From Leclercia sp. UBA7405 (GTDB lineage: Bacteria; Pseudomonadota; Gammaproteobacteria; Enterobacterales; Enterobacteriaceae), in contig DKMV01000183.1 in the NCBI GenBank assembly GCA_002469605.1, positions 1-12,593 of the forward strand: a stretch of DNA of 12,593 nucleotides, given 5' to 3'. Numbering within the stretch: position 1 is the stretch's first letter; every line of letters begins with the position of its first letter. The notes beneath the pieces were generated by a model that ran no database searches, was not told where the DNA came from, and saw nothing but the letters and a program-made list of their open reading frames with translations. Shown here piece by piece: positions 1,986 through 12,593 of the stretch. The position numbers and the translations under genes were made by a program.

Positions 1986-3431
1986 ATGCTTGCCATTAAT
2001 AATAACGAGATTGCCGGGCTTTCGCTTAAATACCGGAAAAGCAACGAATCCATGCTTTCACAGGCCGTGGAACGCCTCTCGTCCGGCCTGCGGATCAACG
2101 GCGCCAAAGACGATGCCGCCGGGCAGGCGATCGTCAACCGTATGCAGTCAAATCTCAACGCAGACAGCGTGATTTCTCGCGGCATGGACGATGCTATAAG
2201 CCTGGCGCAGACCGCAGAAAGCGCGCTCGGTGAAATTGGCGACATGCTTATTCGTGCAAAAAGTCTGGCGGTTCAGGCGGCAACGGGAACGCTCTCAGAA
2301 AGCGACCGTATCAGTATTAATAATGAGTATCAGCAAATACTGGCCGGTATTACGCAAATAACTGAGGGAACGGAAATATTTGGGCAATATCCCCTCGCGA
2401 CGGATAACCCGGTATTGCCGCCGCAGCTGCTTGGCGATGTGGGGCCTTTAAATACTAAATTCCCGATAATGGGTAATACCTACTCCTTTACTTCGGGGAT
2501 TGTTCCGCTGGCCTATATTCCCGCCGGTTCGACAAATCTGACTATCAGGATCAACTCCCTGGGCCTGGATGACGATCTTCAGCTCTTTACCCGGGATGGT
2601 AAACACCTGGTGGGAACACCGCTGGAAGGCGCAGACGCGGATTTCACCTGGGTGAGCCACGGGATCACCGACGGCACGCTCGCCACCGGTGCCCTTATGA
2701 ACTCTGCCAACGGCTTTGCCAGCGGCGCCACCTACGATGACTCCCTGCTGCTGGAAGGGGGGCCGGTCTGGGATAACACCGGGCCGACGCTGGCCTATAA
2801 CGGCATGAATATCACCTACAGCGGCGATGGCGATCGCTACGAAGACAGCACCAACGGCGGCTATAACGACGGCACCAACGGCCCGATTATGAGTGAGCGC
2901 ATTACGCTGGATCAGGTGACCGAAGATCTGCTGGTGATGGTAGTGGGCAATGGCTCGTTCACCAGCGCCGTGACCTGGGGAAACCTGCCTGCGCCGACGG
3001 CGACGCCCGCCGTGCCGCCTAAGCAGAGCCATCCGGTGGAGCTGGTGACCAGCGCCAACTTTGGCGAAGAGATGCAGACCATGACCATCGCGCCGACGCC
3101 TGCGGATCTCAAAACCCTGAAGCTGGAAAACACCAGTATGTCGACCCAAAGCGGGGCCAGTCAGTGTATGGGGGCGTTAGATGCGGCGCTGGAAAAGGTG
3201 AGTGGCTATCGCAGCCAGTACGGGGCGACGATTAATAGCGTCGAGTCGCACAAGGCGGTGCTGTCACAGCAGAATATTGCGCTGCAGGCCAGCCGCAGCC
3301 GCATTCAGGACGCGGACTACGCCGCTGAAGCCAGCCGCCTGGCCCGGGCGCAAATTCTGGAGCAGGGGCAGTCTGCGGCGCTGAAAATTGCCAATCAGGC
3401 GCCGCAGAGGGTGCTGGATCTGCTGAAATAA
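1986..3431 (+). CDS. Orphan flagellin with an unusual central domain
   Basis: This 481-residue protein has the conserved flagellin ends that form the D0/D1 core of the filament. The N-terminus includes LSSGLRINGAKDDAAGQAI at 31-49 and LAVQAA at 94-99. The C-terminus includes SRSRIQDADYAAEASRLARA at 436-455 and ends QAPQRVLDLLK. Residues about 150-385 are not the usual D2/D3: they look beta-rich (LTIRINSLGLDDDLQLFTRD at 185-204), with an acidic Gly/Asn/Asp stretch at 280-300, and suggest a PPC- or P-domain-like beta-sandwich. Leu88, Arg90, Leu94 and Glu114 fall at the TLR5-contact positions of Salmonella FliC. A single Cys394 in the C-terminal core is odd. The ATG at 1986 is chosen over a TTG at 1971 because it gives the normal flagellin start and a leader that fits the promoter. 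The Shine-Dalgarno is weak. No other flagellar gene is nearby. Confidence 0.9.
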   Translation: MLAINNNEIAGLSLKYRKSNESMLSQAVERLSSGLRINGAKDDAAGQAIVNRMQSNLNADSVISRGMDDAISLAQTAESALGEIGDMLIRAKSLAVQAATGTLSESDRISINNEYQQILAGITQITEGTEIFGQYPLATDNPVLPPQLLGDVGPLNTKFPIMGNTYSFTSGIVPLAYIPAGSTNLTIRINSLGLDDDLQLFTRDGKHLVGTPLEGADADFTWVSHGITDGTLATGALMNSANGFASGATYDDSLLLEGGPVWDNTGPTLAYNGMNITYSGDGDRYEDSTNGGYNDGTNGPIMSERITLDQVTEDLLVMVVGNGSFTSAVTWGNLPAPTATPAVPPKQSHPVELVTSANFGEEMQTMTIAPTPADLKTLKLENTSMSTQSGASQCMGALDAALEKVSGYRSQYGATINSVESHKAVLSQQNIALQASRSRIQDADYAAEASRLARAQILEQGQSAALKIANQAPQRVLDLLK

Positions 3432-3620: not shown

Positions 3621-3974
3621 TTACTCCTTATGGGTATTAACGACTTTCCCCAGGCCTGCGCCTTCAAGCGTTGCGTCGGGAGCGGCAAAAAAGTCGATAT
3701 TAAAATAGGTATCTTCCGTCAGCAGTTCGATGCGATGCCATTTTTGCGGCGGGGAGATACCAAAGCTGCCGGCTTCGATTACCAGCTCCAGATCCGGCTC
3801 TGTGGCATCACCATCGGCAAAGCCAAAATAGCGCACCGCGCCCTGCATCACCGACAGGCGGCCATAGACGTTGGCTTTGGTGTTGTGATGGGTGAAGAGC
3901 GCTTTTGGTGCGGTTTCACGGTTCCAGAAGGGGGTAGAGCGGGTATGAACATAATTTTCAGGAATACGTAGCAT
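3621..3974 (-). CDS. yeaR: YeaR (DUF1971, cupin-like), copy nearest yoaG
   Basis: A 117-residue protein with the YeaR/DUF1971 (TehB-related, cupin-like) signature: HTRSTPFWNRETAP near the N-terminus, GRLSVMQGAVRY, then IEAGSFGISPPQKWHRIE and TYFNIDFF. The conserved His/Glu set is typical of a small beta-barrel that could bind a metal or small anion, but no reaction is established. E. coli YeaR is induced by nitrate, nitrite and NO. This copy keeps the C-terminal tail (LEG...GKVVN) seen in E. coli YeaR, which the paralogue upstream lacks. It also lacks about three residues in the loop before GRLSVMQG. The ATG at 3974 has AAGGAA 8 nt upstream. It lies between the paralogue (26-bp gap) and yoaG (4-bp gap) in one operon. 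Confidence 0.92.
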   Translation of the reverse strand: MLRIPENYVHTRSTPFWNRETAPKALFTHHNTKANVYGRLSVMQGAVRYFGFADGDATEPDLELVIEAGSFGISPPQKWHRIELLTEDTYFNIDFFAAPDATLEGAGLGKVVNTHKE

Positions 3975-4000: not shown

Positions 4001-4327
4001 TCAGTATGATTTCAGGATCTCGGGCTCAACGAAAAAATCGATATTAAACAGCGTGTCATCACTCATCACCTCGATGTGATGCCAGCGTTCCGGCGGAAAT
4101 ACGCCAAAATGCCCCGCTTCGATGATGAGAACGCCGTCGGGCTCGGGGCTGGTCTCATCAGCATAGCCGAGCCAGATAACTGTGCCCTGCATAACGCTAA
4201 GGCGAGGATAGACGCCGGGTTGGGTGCCTTTATCAAGGTGGCGCTGAAACAGGCCAGCAGGGGCGGTCATTCTGTTCCAGATCGGGGTGGAGCGGGTATG
4301 AATACAACTCTGCGGAATACGAAGCAT
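4001..4327 (-). CDS. Second YeaR-like protein (DUF1971), first gene of the operon
   Basis: A 108-residue YeaR paralogue: MLRIPQSCIHTRSTPIWNR, then GVYPRLSVMQG, EAGHFGVFPPERWHHIE and TLFNIDFFVEPE. Its core loop (HLDKGTQPGVYP) is closer to E. coli YeaR than the downstream copy is, but it stops short of the C-terminal tail. The pair therefore looks like a tandem duplication whose copies have diverged in different parts. The ATG at 4327 is chosen because it has GGGAGG 4 nt upstream and matches the family N-terminus. A TTG at 4351 would add eight residues not expected in the family. It is the promoter-proximal gene, with an NsrR operator about 60-80 bp upstream. Function is unknown; a role under nitrosative stress is inferred. 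Confidence 0.9.
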   Translation of the reverse strand: MLRIPQSCIHTRSTPIWNRMTAPAGLFQRHLDKGTQPGVYPRLSVMQGTVIWLGYADETSPEPDGVLIIEAGHFGVFPPERWHHIEVMSDDTLFNIDFFVEPEILKSY

Positions 4328-4378
4328 TTTTCCTCCCTTTTTAGCCTGCAACCATTAAAGCACCTCAGGGACAGGATT

Positions 4379-4708: not shown

Positions 4709-4882
4709 ATGACGTTGTATCAGAAAATGTTGGTGTTTTACGCAATCATGGCGACGCTCTGCGCCCTTATTACCTGGTTCCTCTCTAAAGATCGTAAACG
4801 CATTCGCTTTCTGAGCGCCTTTCTGGTGGGCTCAACCTGGCCGATGAGTTTCCCGGTGGCGCTGCTAATTTCGTTATTTTGA
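4709..4882 (+). CDS. ortT: OrtT-family small membrane toxin (GhoT-like)
   Basis: A 57-residue, two-helix inner-membrane protein, the exact family length. Hydrophobic segments lie at about 5-24 and 33-55, joined by a basic turn (SKDRKRIRF), and the hallmark LSAFLVGSTWPMSFPVALL is at 35-53. It matches E. coli OrtT (YdcX) closely and GhoT more distantly. These proteins damage the membrane and lower proton-motive force and ATP. GhoT is controlled by the GhoS RNase antitoxin, while OrtT is described as an orphan toxin active under stringent stress. No GhoS-like gene is visible here. The ATG at 4709 has GGAG 8 nt upstream; the ATG at 4664 has no ribosome site. In E. coli ortT sits next to patD, so this copy is positional evidence that 1832-4580 was inserted, or lost elsewhere. 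Confidence 0.92.
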   Translation: MTLYQKMLVFYAIMATLCALITWFLSKDRKRIRFLSAFLVGSTWPMSFPVALLISLF

Positions 4883-5357: not shown

Positions 5358-5567
5358 TACATCTTGTCCTTAAAGCTTTTTATATCTTCATATTTAATAT
5401 GCAAGCGTATTATTTCCTGAATAACGGATGCGCGAAAAGTACGCCAGCAATGGCGTGGATTATAAAAACGACGTTATAAAATTAATAAGATGCGAAGGGG
5501 AGCAATCCTTAATTATCCAGCCACAGGCTTTGCTGTCGTGGGATTAGGACAGGGATTTATCAATAAC

Positions 5568-5771
5568 TTATGCATTAACAAACAGATAGCCATCAAATTC
5601 ATAATTTAAATCTTTAGTTTTATCGCTGCTCCTGATTTTCTGCCCGCTAAGATGAGGCTTACTACCGCCGCTTTCTGTGATCTCTGTCGCTTTCAGGGTA
5701 CTCTTTTTATTAATAGTGATCTCAGTGGCGGCATAAATATAAAATTTAATTACGATGCTGTTGAAGTATTC
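5568..5771 (-). pseudogene. Possible remnant of a coding sequence
   Basis: A stop-free stretch of 67 codons on the minus strand sits between TAA TAA (just before 5771) and TAA at 5570-5568. It contains no ATG, GTG or TTG start with a ribosome site. The translation alternates polar and hydrophobic residues in a beta-like way (YAATEITINKKSTLKATEIT, later LNYEFDGYLFVNA). A short open frame in another register lies just upstream (about 5772-5826), so a frameshifted, truncated surface or secreted protein is possible. Chance openness in AT-rich DNA cannot be excluded. Confidence 0.2.
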
Positions 5772-5919
5772 TTATTAATTATTGTAATAATCGCGCTGTT
5801 ATAAAAATGATTAACGGTAAGAAAATAGAGATTTCCCTCTAAGAAAAGTACCCGGATTTATCCTTTCTGAAGGCCGCTTCCAGTTTTGTCTTTCGGCAAT
5901 AGCATTTCTTTTGCGATAA

Positions 5920-5935
5920 CTGTATAAATACACAG
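5920..5935. promoter_or_regulatory. LexA SOS box before the alpha/beta hydrolase
   Basis: CTGTATAAATACACAG matches the LexA consensus CTGTATATATATACAG at 14 of 16 positions, including both CTG and CAG ends with the required N10 spacing. It overlaps the likely -10 TATAAA (5923-5928) and ends 20 bp before the ATG at 5956, the usual geometry for LexA repression. The -35 is weak (TAGCAT 5900-5905, 17-bp spacing). Confidence 0.72.
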
Positions 5936-5955
5936 CCATCAGAAAAGGAGTGCTT

Positions 5956-8896: not shown

Positions 8897-11874
8897 TTCA
8901 GGTATACGCTCCCGCTGTCGATCCAGTAGTGGCTGCCGCTATGACGGCGATCGGCCAGGGTATTCAGTTTAAAGGTCAGGGCATCGGCCGGAACCGGGGT
9001 GCCGTCCTGCAGCCAGGCATCGCTCAGCTCCAGGGCTTCCGGTCCTTCGTGTCGGCTACCGCCGCAGAGCTGCAGGCGCACGTTCAGCACGCCGTCGCCC
9101 GCTATCGATTTCGCCAGCTCCGGCGAGTTGATGCTCAGGGTGTAAAGCGGGGTGGCGGGCCAGCGGGCGTTTGCCAGCTGGCGGAAGCCGAGCGTCACGT
9201 TGCCGCGTAGCGGGAAGTGCAGCCGTGCATCCAGCTTCGCGCCGGGCTTATCGAGGTCGATATCCTGATACCAGACGTTCTCCTCCCGCAGGGTGTTCAC
9301 GGTGTTATCCAGCACCCCGAGGTAGCGCACCGTGGAGTAAGCCCCGATATCCGCCGCCTTGAAGTTAAAGCGCGGCAGGCGCAGGTCCAGCGCCAGGCTA
9401 CAGAGCATCGCCCCTACCGCCGCGGTGGATTTCGGGTTACCGATGCGCCCCTGCTGGCTGAAGGGGTACCACTCGTGCACCCGGTATTTATCCAGCCACA
9501 CCATGCGGCTGACCGGCACCGGCTGCAGATGGCGGATCAGCGCCTGGACGCCTGGCAAACAGCCCGGACGGCCGGTGATCAGCAGAATATCGCAGGCGTA
9601 GTGGGAGATAGCTTCGCAGACCGCGTGCAGCGGTGCCGCCAGGCTAAAGTGGCCGGCCAGCATCGCCTCCTGCATTTCGCGGAAATTAACGTGCAGCGGC
9701 ACGGCGAAGAGGTCAAAAGGCGGCGATCCCGCGGGCAGGGCATGGTCAATGGCCTGCTGCAGATAGTTCATCACGTTGCGCGTGGGCTTGTGGGCCAGCA
9801 GATCGCCAAAGGTGGCGTGCAGGCCATCAAGGGGATCGTCGATATCGCTGGCCTCCCAGGCGCCAAGAATGGCGTGGCCGATGGGCATAAAGAGCTGCAG
9901 GGCGGTTTGCTGGCGCAGTACCGCCTGGGTGTCGATGCGCCCGGAGTCGCCGAACAGCGAGGCCATCAGCAGCGAGGCGTCGGCAATTCCCGATTTTTGC
10001 AGATGGGTTTGCAGGGCGGGCAGCACGTAGCGCTGGATCACGTCCAGCAGGGTGTCATCCCCGGCGACCTTAAAGCCTTCGCGGAACAGCAGCTGCGGGG
10101 TAATTTTGACATTGCTGCCCGAGCCGTCGTCCAGTTGATAGTGGGTGATGGCCATATCGGTGGTGCCGCCGCCGATATCCACGGAGGCGACGCGCAGGGC
10201 GCGCCCGGGGGCTGAGCCTGGCTCCGGCTCGCGGTCCGGGCGGGCAAGAGCGGCAAAGAAGGCTTCGGTCTGGCCGCCGTAATGGGAGATGGCTTCGTTA
10301 TAGAGCCACACCAGCTGGCCGCAGCTTGCTTCGTCCCACTCCATCTGGATCGTCGGCACCGGCACCACGCTCTTCTCCTGCTGTTTGCGGCTGGAGAAGT
10401 CGTCATCCTGTGGGTGCCAGCCCATCGCTTTCCAGACGATAGCGATCGCCTCGAACATCCGGCGGCGGAAGATCTCGCGCTCCTGCTTCGGCATCGCTGA
10501 GGGCAGGGTGAGGATCAGGCTGCGCAGCTGGCGCGGCGAGGCCGGGAAGCCCAGACGCAGGCGGGTGGCGACGCTGTTGATCTGCCCCAGCGCCTGCGCC
10601 AGCAGCTCGCAGAGCATATGAGTCATCAGGGTGCTGCGGCTGTACTGGGGCGAGAAGACCGGCAGGCGTTCATCCTGCGGCAGGGTAAACAGCGGCTGCC
10701 CGTCGTCGTTCATCAGGTTCATCAGCGGGAAGGCAGTCGCCAGAGGTTCACGCTGGGTTTTGGCGTTCATCTGGCTAAAGCGCCAGTCCTGCACCACCGG
10801 GGTTTCATCCCACAGATAGCGGCGCGGGCTGGAGATACCGCTGTTGCCCTCGGTGCCGAGGCGCCGGGTCGCCAGCTTGCGCGCCTCGTCGCCCACGCGC
10901 ACGATAGATGGCCAGACGAAGGCATCTTCGCGCCCGCTCTCCACCGAAAAGTGCTGCTTGCCGAAGCGGGCTTCGGAAAACTCCAGCCGGCTGGTAAACA
11001 GCGGCTCGTTGAGGAACTGCGGCTCGCTTAAGGAGCGCACCTGTAGCTCGGCGGTCTGGCGCAGGCCGTCGTTGGCATCCCCGTGATCTTCGATGATCAC
11101 CCCGCAGGTATGGGTATTGCCCACGTCGAGGATCAGATCCACCGGAATAGCCGGGGTGCTAAGGGTATGGGTGACGAATTTTACTTCCGGCACCCTGAGC
11201 TGCTCGCCCAGCATCGCCAGAATGTTCAGCCAGTGCGCCTGGTATTCAAAGTTACGCATCGCCTGCTGCAGGTCGCGGTCGGCGCGGCTCTCTACCCCGG
11301 TGGCGTACTGGGTAAAGGCCTCGCGCAGCCAGCCGTCGATCCAGGTCTGGTCGAGGAAGTCGGCCACTTCGTCATCGCGCCAGGCCAGCGCAAAGCGGGT
11401 GCCGTTAAGAATATCGTTTTCGACCGGCGACAGCACAGAGGTGGCCTGCGGGGCGATCTGGCTATCGAGGGCCAGGGTTACCCGGTGGGTATTGCCGGCG
11501 CTGTCCGGGCTCTCCAGGCGGCGCACCTGCACCCGCGCCCAGTTGTCCGGGCCTTCGACAAAGGTACGCGGCGGGTTAAAGCGCAGGAAGGGCACCGGCA
11601 GCCAGACGCCGTCCAGCACCGCCAGCGAGTGGGCAAGGGCGATGGTGCTTTCAGGCTTAACTACTTCCGGCTGACCGCCGCCGCTGGCGGGCAGGGTGTA
11701 GCGGCCATTCACCAGATCCCAGTTCAGGCGCAGCAGGGGGCCGTTGGCGGTTTTACGCACGAAGCGGCCATAGCGGGCCGATTCCTGCGGGGTGAGGCCA
11801 AAATCAAGAAACTGTACGCCGCTGTTCGCAATCAGCGTCACGCTCTGTTTGTAGTCGCAAAGATTAACCAGCAT
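8893..11874 (-). CDS. srfB: SrfB, Hsp70/actin-like putative ATPase
   Basis: A 993-residue protein that I recognise as SrfB from its MLVNLCDYKQSVTLIANSG start. It carries the signatures of the actin/Hsp70/FtsA ATPase fold in order: phosphate-1 ILDVGNTHTCG at 248-258, an Hsp70-like connect segment LILTLPSAMPKQER at 453-466, phosphate-2 VDIGGGTTD at 565-573, and an adenosine-type ILLITGRPGCLPG at 763-775. About 240 residues precede the ATPase core and about 150 follow it. The ATG at 11874 is chosen over GTG at 11886 for the family N-terminus and an AGGTG 9 nt upstream. It lies 4 nt after srfA and overlaps srfC. In Salmonella it was named from SsrB regulation. Its reaction partners are unknown. 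All nucleotide-binding motifs look intact. Confidence 0.93.
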   Translation of the reverse strand: MLVNLCDYKQSVTLIANSGVQFLDFGLTPQESARYGRFVRKTANGPLLRLNWDLVNGRYTLPASGGGQPEVVKPESTIALAHSLAVLDGVWLPVPFLRFNPPRTFVEGPDNWARVQVRRLESPDSAGNTHRVTLALDSQIAPQATSVLSPVENDILNGTRFALAWRDDEVADFLDQTWIDGWLREAFTQYATGVESRADRDLQQAMRNFEYQAHWLNILAMLGEQLRVPEVKFVTHTLSTPAIPVDLILDVGNTHTCGVIIEDHGDANDGLRQTAELQVRSLSEPQFLNEPLFTSRLEFSEARFGKQHFSVESGREDAFVWPSIVRVGDEARKLATRRLGTEGNSGISSPRRYLWDETPVVQDWRFSQMNAKTQREPLATAFPLMNLMNDDGQPLFTLPQDERLPVFSPQYSRSTLMTHMLCELLAQALGQINSVATRLRLGFPASPRQLRSLILTLPSAMPKQEREIFRRRMFEAIAIVWKAMGWHPQDDDFSSRKQQEKSVVPVPTIQMEWDEASCGQLVWLYNEAISHYGGQTEAFFAALARPDREPEPGSAPGRALRVASVDIGGGTTDMAITHYQLDDGSGSNVKITPQLLFREGFKVAGDDTLLDVIQRYVLPALQTHLQKSGIADASLLMASLFGDSGRIDTQAVLRQQTALQLFMPIGHAILGAWEASDIDDPLDGLHATFGDLLAHKPTRNVMNYLQQAIDHALPAGSPPFDLFAVPLHVNFREMQEAMLAGHFSLAAPLHAVCEAISHYACDILLITGRPGCLPGVQALIRHLQPVPVSRMVWLDKYRVHEWYPFSQQGRIGNPKSTAAVGAMLCSLALDLRLPRFNFKAADIGAYSTVRYLGVLDNTVNTLREENVWYQDIDLDKPGAKLDARLHFPLRGNVTLGFRQLANARWPATPLYTLSINSPELAKSIAGDGVLNVRLQLCGGSRHEGPEALELSDAWLQDGTPVPADALTFKLNTLADRRHSGSHYWIDSGSVYLK

Positions 11875-11878
11875 GAAA

Positions 11879-12593
11879 TCACGCACCTGCTTTTCTGAAT
11901 GTCAATGGAACCACGGTTTTGGCGTCGTAGCGCGCGGTACACTCCGCCACATCATTCACCCCGGCTTTACAGGCGATCTCCGGCATTGGATAGCGCGAGC
12001 CGTCGGTGCAGCGGGCGTTGCCCCGGGTTTTAATCAGCAGCTCGCCGTTACTGTGCAGGCCGGAGAAGACCTCGGTGCGGCAGACGATGTTGTCGCCGTG
12101 TACCACCCGGGCGCTGCCTTTATTGTTCTGAATCTGGTAGCGCAGCGACGGCGGTTTGCCGGTGATGGGATCTTTTACGTCCAGCATTACGCGCCAGCTG
12201 CCGTTCAGGAAGCGGGTCGACCCGGCCTTCACCTGGCCGGCCTCCATCACCATCGCCTCTTTCGGGATGGCGGCAATCACCACGGGTTCGGCGGCAGGGG
12301 CCGGTTCCGGCTCGGCTACCTTCACCGCGGCCACTTCAGCCTGATGCAGAGGTAGCGTCAGAGGCAGAGGCTTAACGGCCGCGACCGGTTTGGGGGCAAT
12401 GGCAACGGCGGCAGCCGGCGCGGGCTGCGGCTGTTCCGCCTGGGGGGCCTTGCCAGGCCACAGCAGCGGCGCGGCAACGGCGGCCACTACCACGGCAGCT
12501 ACCGGCAGGGGCCACAGAGGGAAGCGGCGTTTTTTCACTGCCACCGGCGCGGGCTCGGCCTCTTCAGGGAGAGTCACCGGAAGCGGCTCGGCG
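11879..12593 (-). CDS. srfA: SrfA-family membrane protein, C-terminal part
   Basis: The C-terminal 237 residues of a protein whose N-terminus lies beyond the right edge. The frame stays open to the end, so the GTG at 12577 is an internal valine and not the start. A KKRR stop-transfer cluster precedes one hydrophobic helix (PVAAVVVAAVAAPLLW), then a long Ala/Pro/Val/Lys linker, then a compact C-terminal domain (from about GSTRFLNGSWRV) with four cysteines (NIVC, ARC, EIAC, AEC). By the positive-inside rule the N-terminal part is cytoplasmic and the cysteine domain periplasmic, probably disulphide-bonded. It is the first of three genes (srfA-srfB-srfC), 4 nt from srfB. The SrfA assignment rests on this order and topology more than on residue recall. 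Confidence 0.8.
   Translation of the reverse strand, partial: AEPLPVTLPEEAEPAPVAVKKRRFPLWPLPVAAVVVAAVAAPLLWPGKAPQAEQPQPAPAAAVAIAPKPVAAVKPLPLTLPLHQAEVAAVKVAEPEPAPAAEPVVIAAIPKEAMVMEAGQVKAGSTRFLNGSWRVMLDVKDPITGKPPSLRYQIQNNKGSARVVHGDNIVCRTEVFSGLHSNGELLIKTRGNARCTDGSRYPMPEIACKAGVNDVAECTARYDAKTVVPLTFRKAGA

Follow-up and report, generated by a model that had tools for sequence, protein, structure and literature searches.

Several kinds of additional or modified flagellin have been described besides FliC and FljB of the Enterobacterales. The LPP-1 plasmids of Pantoea span 281–794 kb; those of Group II (P. ananatis and P. stewartii) average 310 kb and carry fliC copies outside the fli locus that were read as phase-variation flagellins, in a passage that is silent on their centre (PMC3505739). 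Flagellinolysin and other domain-inserted flagellins, which are scattered taxonomically, combine flagellin ends with a foreign surface domain, as set out in PMC5595980, and the flagellin FliCP, found in prophages with TldR, is likewise an additional gene outside the fli locus in the account given by PMC13418256, which also mentions a rare third flagellin, fliC2. Several FliC paralogues are reported within the single strain Enterobacter sp. SA187 (PMC5664417). Here, we describe a stand-alone ("orphan") flagellin gene at positions 1986–3431 of a 12,593-nucleotide stretch of Leclercia sp. UBA7405 DNA (contig DKMV01000183.1, assembly GCA_002469605.1; the whole stretch is referred to as the window). 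The gene belongs to a flagellin lineage of its own, of which the SA187 protein P0025 is also a member, with a central region that appears to be conserved where that of FliC is hypervariable. Domain-inserted flagellins, plasmid flagellins and multiple FliC paralogues have thus already been published, whereas our literature search found neither this lineage nor the conservation of its centre described.

The gene runs on the forward strand, as do all of its features given below, from an ATG at 1986 to a TAA at 3429–3431 and encodes a protein of 481 amino acids. In a Pfam scan, Flagellin_N was matched at residues 4–138 (positions 1995–2399; 93.3 bits against a cut-off of 26.6) and Flagellin_C at residues 396–480 (3171–3425; 61 bits, cut-off 23), in agreement with an earlier note, made from the letters alone, which had called the D0/D1 ends true flagellin. 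No other family reached E ≤ 0.1, leaving the middle of the protein uncovered, and the 25 listed of 29 NCBIfam matches were all to flagellin or hook-protein models, each below its cut-off. Both flagellin domains were detected in all 58 aligned relatives (E ≤ 1), and identity as a filament subunit is well supported at the level of sequence. The contention that the centre is not a standard D2/D3 holds as far as families go, given that neither Flagellin_D3 nor Flagellin_IN matched it in Pfam and that no D2/D3 family is among the 25 listed of the 28 Pfam families found in the 58 relatives. Unlike flagellinolysin, the protein lacks the HExxH zinc motif, no HE pair being present anywhere in its 481 residues.

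With FliC and FljB, the protein shares the D0/D1 ends, a sigma-28-type promoter and, presumably, the export route. It differs from them in descent: a tree built from D0/D1 only split 41 orphans from 34 other flagellins with support of 100/100 and a branch length of 0.7, and the split was recovered in 100% of 200 bootstrap trees. The comparison set consisted of 30 FliC and 4 flagellins from other bacteria and does not name the sister group; FlgL and LafA were left out of the final tree because, once they were included, the very long FlgL branch joined inside the orphans. Two members from the betaproteobacterial genus Castellaniella fell on the orphan side. Because D0/D1 alone separates the orphans from FliC, the entire gene is taken to be an old paralogue, and not the product of a new graft of the centre onto a local FliC of the tree set.

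The second difference from FliC lies in where the protein is conserved. Orphan and FliC were compared in 25 of the 35 carrier genomes identified below (300 pairs; both loci were fetched for 26, of which genome G248, where the orphan is interrupted, was not used), FliC being taken as the best-scoring other flagellin of each genome, which in 24 of the 25 is no more than 2 kb away from FliD (the exception is G606). Median identity over the first 135 residues was 57% among the orphans, compared with 74% among the FliC proteins; over the centre, the orphans reached 58.5% and FliC 17%, a figure that differences in length push down, since identity was divided by the longer centre. The centre was more alike than the N-terminal part in 168 of the 300 orphan pairs, against 0 of the 300 for FliC. 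Among the 58 relatives, column conservation was 0.71 for the centre, 0.66–0.72 for D1 and 0.47 for residues 1–20. The ratio of nonsynonymous to synonymous substitution rates (dN/dS), calculated for 10 pairs picked by hand (L147, with an internal stop, was left out), was 0.04–0.16 for the centre and 0.05–0.12 for the core. These comparisons indicate that the gene is under purifying selection, with a conserved centre at the place where FliC is hypervariable.

The structure of this centre was modelled with AlphaFold2 for P0001, which differs from the window protein by one residue, using the alignment of 58 relatives. The model (mean predicted local distance difference test score, pLDDT, 84; predicted template modelling score 0.58) combines long D0/D1 helices with a beta-rich centre, the strands of which span residues 166 to 330; the ten-residue means of pLDDT across residues 141–380 lie at 83–94, dropping to 68–70 only at 281–300. 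The beta-rich centre of about 235 residues anticipated by the earlier note is thus seen in the model, but it is better divided into an ordered domain (about residues 141–340; 2406–3005) followed by a Pro/Thr-rich linker (residues 341–390; 3006–3155) that carries two short strands and leads back to D1. The ordered domain is acidic, with 22 D/E against 6 K/R in its 200 residues, and contains an invariant DDD (residues 195–197; 2568–2576) in the alignment of 58 sequences. The acidic stretch that had been placed at residues 280–300 is real: YSGDGDRYED occupies residues 278–287, and within the motif YSGDGDRYE (278–286; 2817–2843), a candidate metal-binding loop, residues 278–281, 283, 284 and 286 are invariant and 282 and 285 nearly so. 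Three distant flagellins (P0160, P0162 and the one at L043 in genome G214) have shortened versions of the centre, and the first two carry FSGDQHPG in place of YSGDGDR.

The centre may tentatively be described as an acidic beta-sandwich resembling the PPC domain (PF04151), interrupted by an insert of about 85 residues (approximately 215–298; 2628–2879, limits set by eye and by profile comparison) that holds the invariant YSGDGDR-type motif. Pfam PPC was weakly matched in 21 of the 58 full-length relatives (best E 0.0011) and in 5 of 12 fragments, and a profile–profile comparison of PPC with the centre scored 26.2, compared with a maximum of 16.8 when its columns were shuffled 60 times and 15.2 when the profile was reversed; both with and without the insert, the score lay above all 60 shuffles. 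The collagen-binding domain of ColH is of the PPC kind. Several results pull away from the PPC assignment. The window centre itself scored 13.4 bits against Pfam PPC, below the gathering cut-off of 25.9; the hhalign probability was 22%, or 69% without the insert; and the second half of the centre, taken alone, scored 11.3, inside the shuffle range. Unlike in a plain PPC domain, the C-terminal half is not significant by itself and the insert brings a motif of its own. The fold match came from a single-sequence model with a pLDDT of 46.6, for which Foldseek returned nothing at E ≤ 0.001; known flagellins aligned to at most 271 of the 481 residues, which fits D0/D1. Among the domain-inserted flagellins, PPC is outside the ten commonest inserted domains of Table 1 in PMC5595980.

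The gene also has a putative promoter. The sequence TAAATTAA-N11-GTCGATAT at 1927–1953, with the ATG 59 bases downstream, is near the sigma-28 (FliA) consensus. In the window alone, another spot scores 12/16, against 11/16 for this one, if a 12-base spacer is allowed, so that the case for the promoter rests on conservation. In 33 distinct 150-base upstream regions, window included (35 before two duplicates were merged), a score of at least 11/16 was reached in 31, and the TAAA...CGAT core at −59 to −70 was kept in 30, with a spacer of 11 in 28; the strict core turned up in 20 of 3300 shuffled upstream regions. Only poor sites were present at L142 and L144, while at L148 a good site lies at −112 relative to the alignment start, or about −67 if an upstream in-frame ATG is the start; L148 was counted as a miss and the 30/33 left as computed. 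Comparison across the relatives thus reveals a predicted sigma-28-type promoter belonging to the gene itself, conserved both in its core and in its spacing from the start codon.

A search with the centre as the query yielded 198 proteins, with a flagellin domain among the Pfam entries of all 120 listed. When the profile search was restricted to shorter proteins, 50 were found, 10 without a flagellin entry, of which 7 are fragment-like and lie on contigs shorter than 2.4 kb. One metagenomic protein of 212 amino acids without a flagellin Pfam domain, P0175, aligns with a portion of the central domain (E 5.8e-13) and may be a non-flagellin carrier of it. The profile search proposed in the earlier note did find like proteins elsewhere: of the 392 genomes and 154 genera sampled in the window's GTDB family, 35 genomes (the source genome counted) and 17 genera carry the centre, as do 5 of 295 genomes of an order-level sample. 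The distribution is patchy, with 2 of the 5 sampled genomes of the window's genus carrying the centre.

On plasmids, 184 of 72,556 records match the protein somewhere, flagellin ends included, and 59 match over at least 80%. The carriers among the 40 listed are large plasmids of Pantoea and Duffyella, mostly of 143–211 kb, with seven at 508–581 kb; these members of the lineage recall the plasmid flagellins of LPP-1. An identification of the Pantoea plasmids as LPP-1 is wrong by size for most of them (143–211 kb against 281–794 kb), and Group II plasmids, as delimited in PMC3505739, are not among the 40. Phage records matched in 12 of 50,697 cases, all below 60% identity, and the one that covers 80% of the query is 27.5% identical.

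A FliD cap gene was found in 35 of 35 carriers, compared with 223 of the 295 order-sample genomes, a contrast that amounts to less than independent evidence, the carriers being related, and all 35 have at least three Flagellin_N matches. Measured by hand, every carrier has some flagellin match no more than 2 kb from a FliD match. In 34 of the 35, however, the stand-alone flagellin is at least 47 kb away from any FliD match or on a different contig, a further difference from FliC and FljB; in G622 the distance is about 7–8 kb. A separate flagellin locus, for which the earlier note suggested looking in this genome, is thus seen in relatives, as a flagellin beside FliD, but in the source genome the only such pair is lateral. 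The contexts of the stand-alone gene vary by group, with patD and srf genes in one, thrS-rplT upstream and pfkB-like genes downstream in another (names that we presume from sequence starts), alsS on plasmids of about 143–211 kb, other plasmid sites, and several arrangements seen once. When eleven flagellar queries were compared with 35 contexts (33 distinct), the flagellin itself was the only match, with the limit that the queries were source-genome proteins, five of them from the lateral system, and diverged main-system genes could escape them.

The source genome, an 80%-complete assembly in 396 contigs, has other Flagellin_N matches on two contigs, with LafA and FlgL on C25 and FlgL on C137, as we take these proteins to be from position and sequence. 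C25 (L037) holds a lateral, flag-2-like flagellar locus in which LafA (11130–12062 of that contig) adjoins a series of FliD-, FliS-, sigma-28- and Mot-like genes; several names in this locus are presumed.

We assign a probability of about 0.55 to the interpretation that the gene is a satellite flagellin, a one-gene add-on for flagellar systems located elsewhere in the genome. FliA, or the sigma factor of the lateral system, would switch it on along with fliC; the subunit would be exported through the host flagellar apparatus, fold beneath the host FliD cap and polymerize either together with FliC or as separate stretches, exposing the acidic PPC-like domain on the filament surface. There, the domain would touch an unchanging common ligand, such as a surface glycan, a matrix protein or a cation-bridged polymer, and the flagellum would become an adhesive or surface-sensing organelle. 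That the central domain most likely touches something unchanging follows from its being kept over genera, unlike that of FliC. The more specific and distinctly tentative version of this proposal, which we consider rather doubtful as a whole, is a mobile gene, usable by any sigma-28-driven system, that would equip the filament with a conserved and acidic domain for binding, perhaps dependent on calcium, and would thereby convert a propeller whose surface varies into an organelle that adheres to or senses a fixed target.

Some observations weigh against the satellite interpretation. Residues 1–20 are the least conserved part of D0/D1 (mean 0.47), so that efficient assembly into the filament is not assured, and dN/dS is greater for the centre than for the core in 7 of the 10 pairs. 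Copies are interrupted in 4 of 35 carriers, which makes the gene dispensable. The main fliC, fliD and fliA were not found in the 80%-complete source genome; because its sole FliD match and its sole FliA match above the cut-off are both on C25, the organism probably does have a main fliA-fliC-fliD stretch that its assembly lacks. The conserved centre, finally, could equally reflect contacts between subunits. Interrupted orphan copies were seen at L017 and L147 and in G622, G316 and G405; G316 is 49% complete and L017 has frame breaks in many genes, so that some of the interruptions may be sequencing errors.

Contacts of this kind are the basis of the foremost alternative, which we rate as unlikely: the centre would be structural, with lateral or sheath-like contacts stiffening the filament for swimming in viscous media or on surfaces, and no ligand would be involved. 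Outer-domain dimerization modulates motility in other flagellins (PMC8931119), a prophage flagellin is described as gaining motility through outer-domain contacts (PMC13418256), and conservation of the centre across genera fits self-contact equally well. In a mixed filament, however, the FliC neighbours have unrelated, divergent centres that would allow few self-contacts, for which reason a fixed ligand is ranked above subunit contacts. Considerably less probable is an alternative major flagellin that displaces FliC, as in the fljB and flkA/fllA/flmA/flnA systems, for antigen switching or immune evasion. There is precedent for flagellin genes at a second locus (PMC7018530), and two extra plasmid fliC genes of Pantoea were interpreted as alternative flagellins (PMC3505739), but antigen switching predicts a variable centre, and that of the orphan is as conserved as its own N-terminal part and is under purifying selection; the conserved surface thus argues against switching and leaves either a fixed ligand or fixed subunit contacts. 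Moreover, no fljA-type repressor is named among the scanned neighbours. A relic or a secreted protein with no filament role is the least probable of all, the interrupted copies and the divergent first 20 residues being offset by low dN/dS for core and centre in the 10 pairs, a conserved promoter and a single lineage across 17 sampled genera.

In the window, upstream of the flagellin gene, are the end of a ydcV-like permease gene and a patD-type aldehyde dehydrogenase gene; downstream are DUF1869, two DUF1971 genes, an OrtT-type gene, an alpha/beta hydrolase gene and srfC-srfB-srfA. None of the scanned window neighbours is a hook, cap, chaperone or flagellin-modification gene, in keeping with the orphan position claimed in the earlier note, and none is named as a phage gene, unlike in the case of FliCP, or as an fljA-type repressor. 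In the one E. coli genome examined, patD leads to yncL, ortT and ydcY without an intervening flagellin, which places the flagellin gene in the patD-ortT interval. A partnership with srfABC is not borne out: the srf genes stand beside the flagellin only in the window, L005–L008, L017 and L147, and the other contexts are without them within the compared stretches. The OrtT/GhoT-type gene (4709–4882, forward strand; 57 amino acids; PF10753, 85 bits) lies 3' of patD as in E. coli, but with the flagellin block in between. The adjoining DUF1971 genes (3621–3974 and 4001–4351, reverse strand) are 54% alike over 78 residues, and some relatives have one such gene and others two. Positions 5360–5950 form an AT-rich stretch of about 590 bases with no open reading frame of 80 or more amino acids and no Rfam match. 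The srfA reading frame (11879–12577, reverse strand) matches only positions 210–437 of the 438-position SrfA model, its 5' part probably lying past the end of the window.

The promoter, the family and the inverted pattern of conservation are additions beyond the earlier note. The surface part of a flagellin is usually read as being pressed to vary; here, it is as conserved as the protein's own filament core, across 17 sampled genera and on chromosomes as well as plasmids, which suggests that the filament surface has a constant task. A single gene with a promoter of its own is a simple genetic handle on that task, and the lineage may explain some of the additional fliC genes to which genome papers assign no role of their own.
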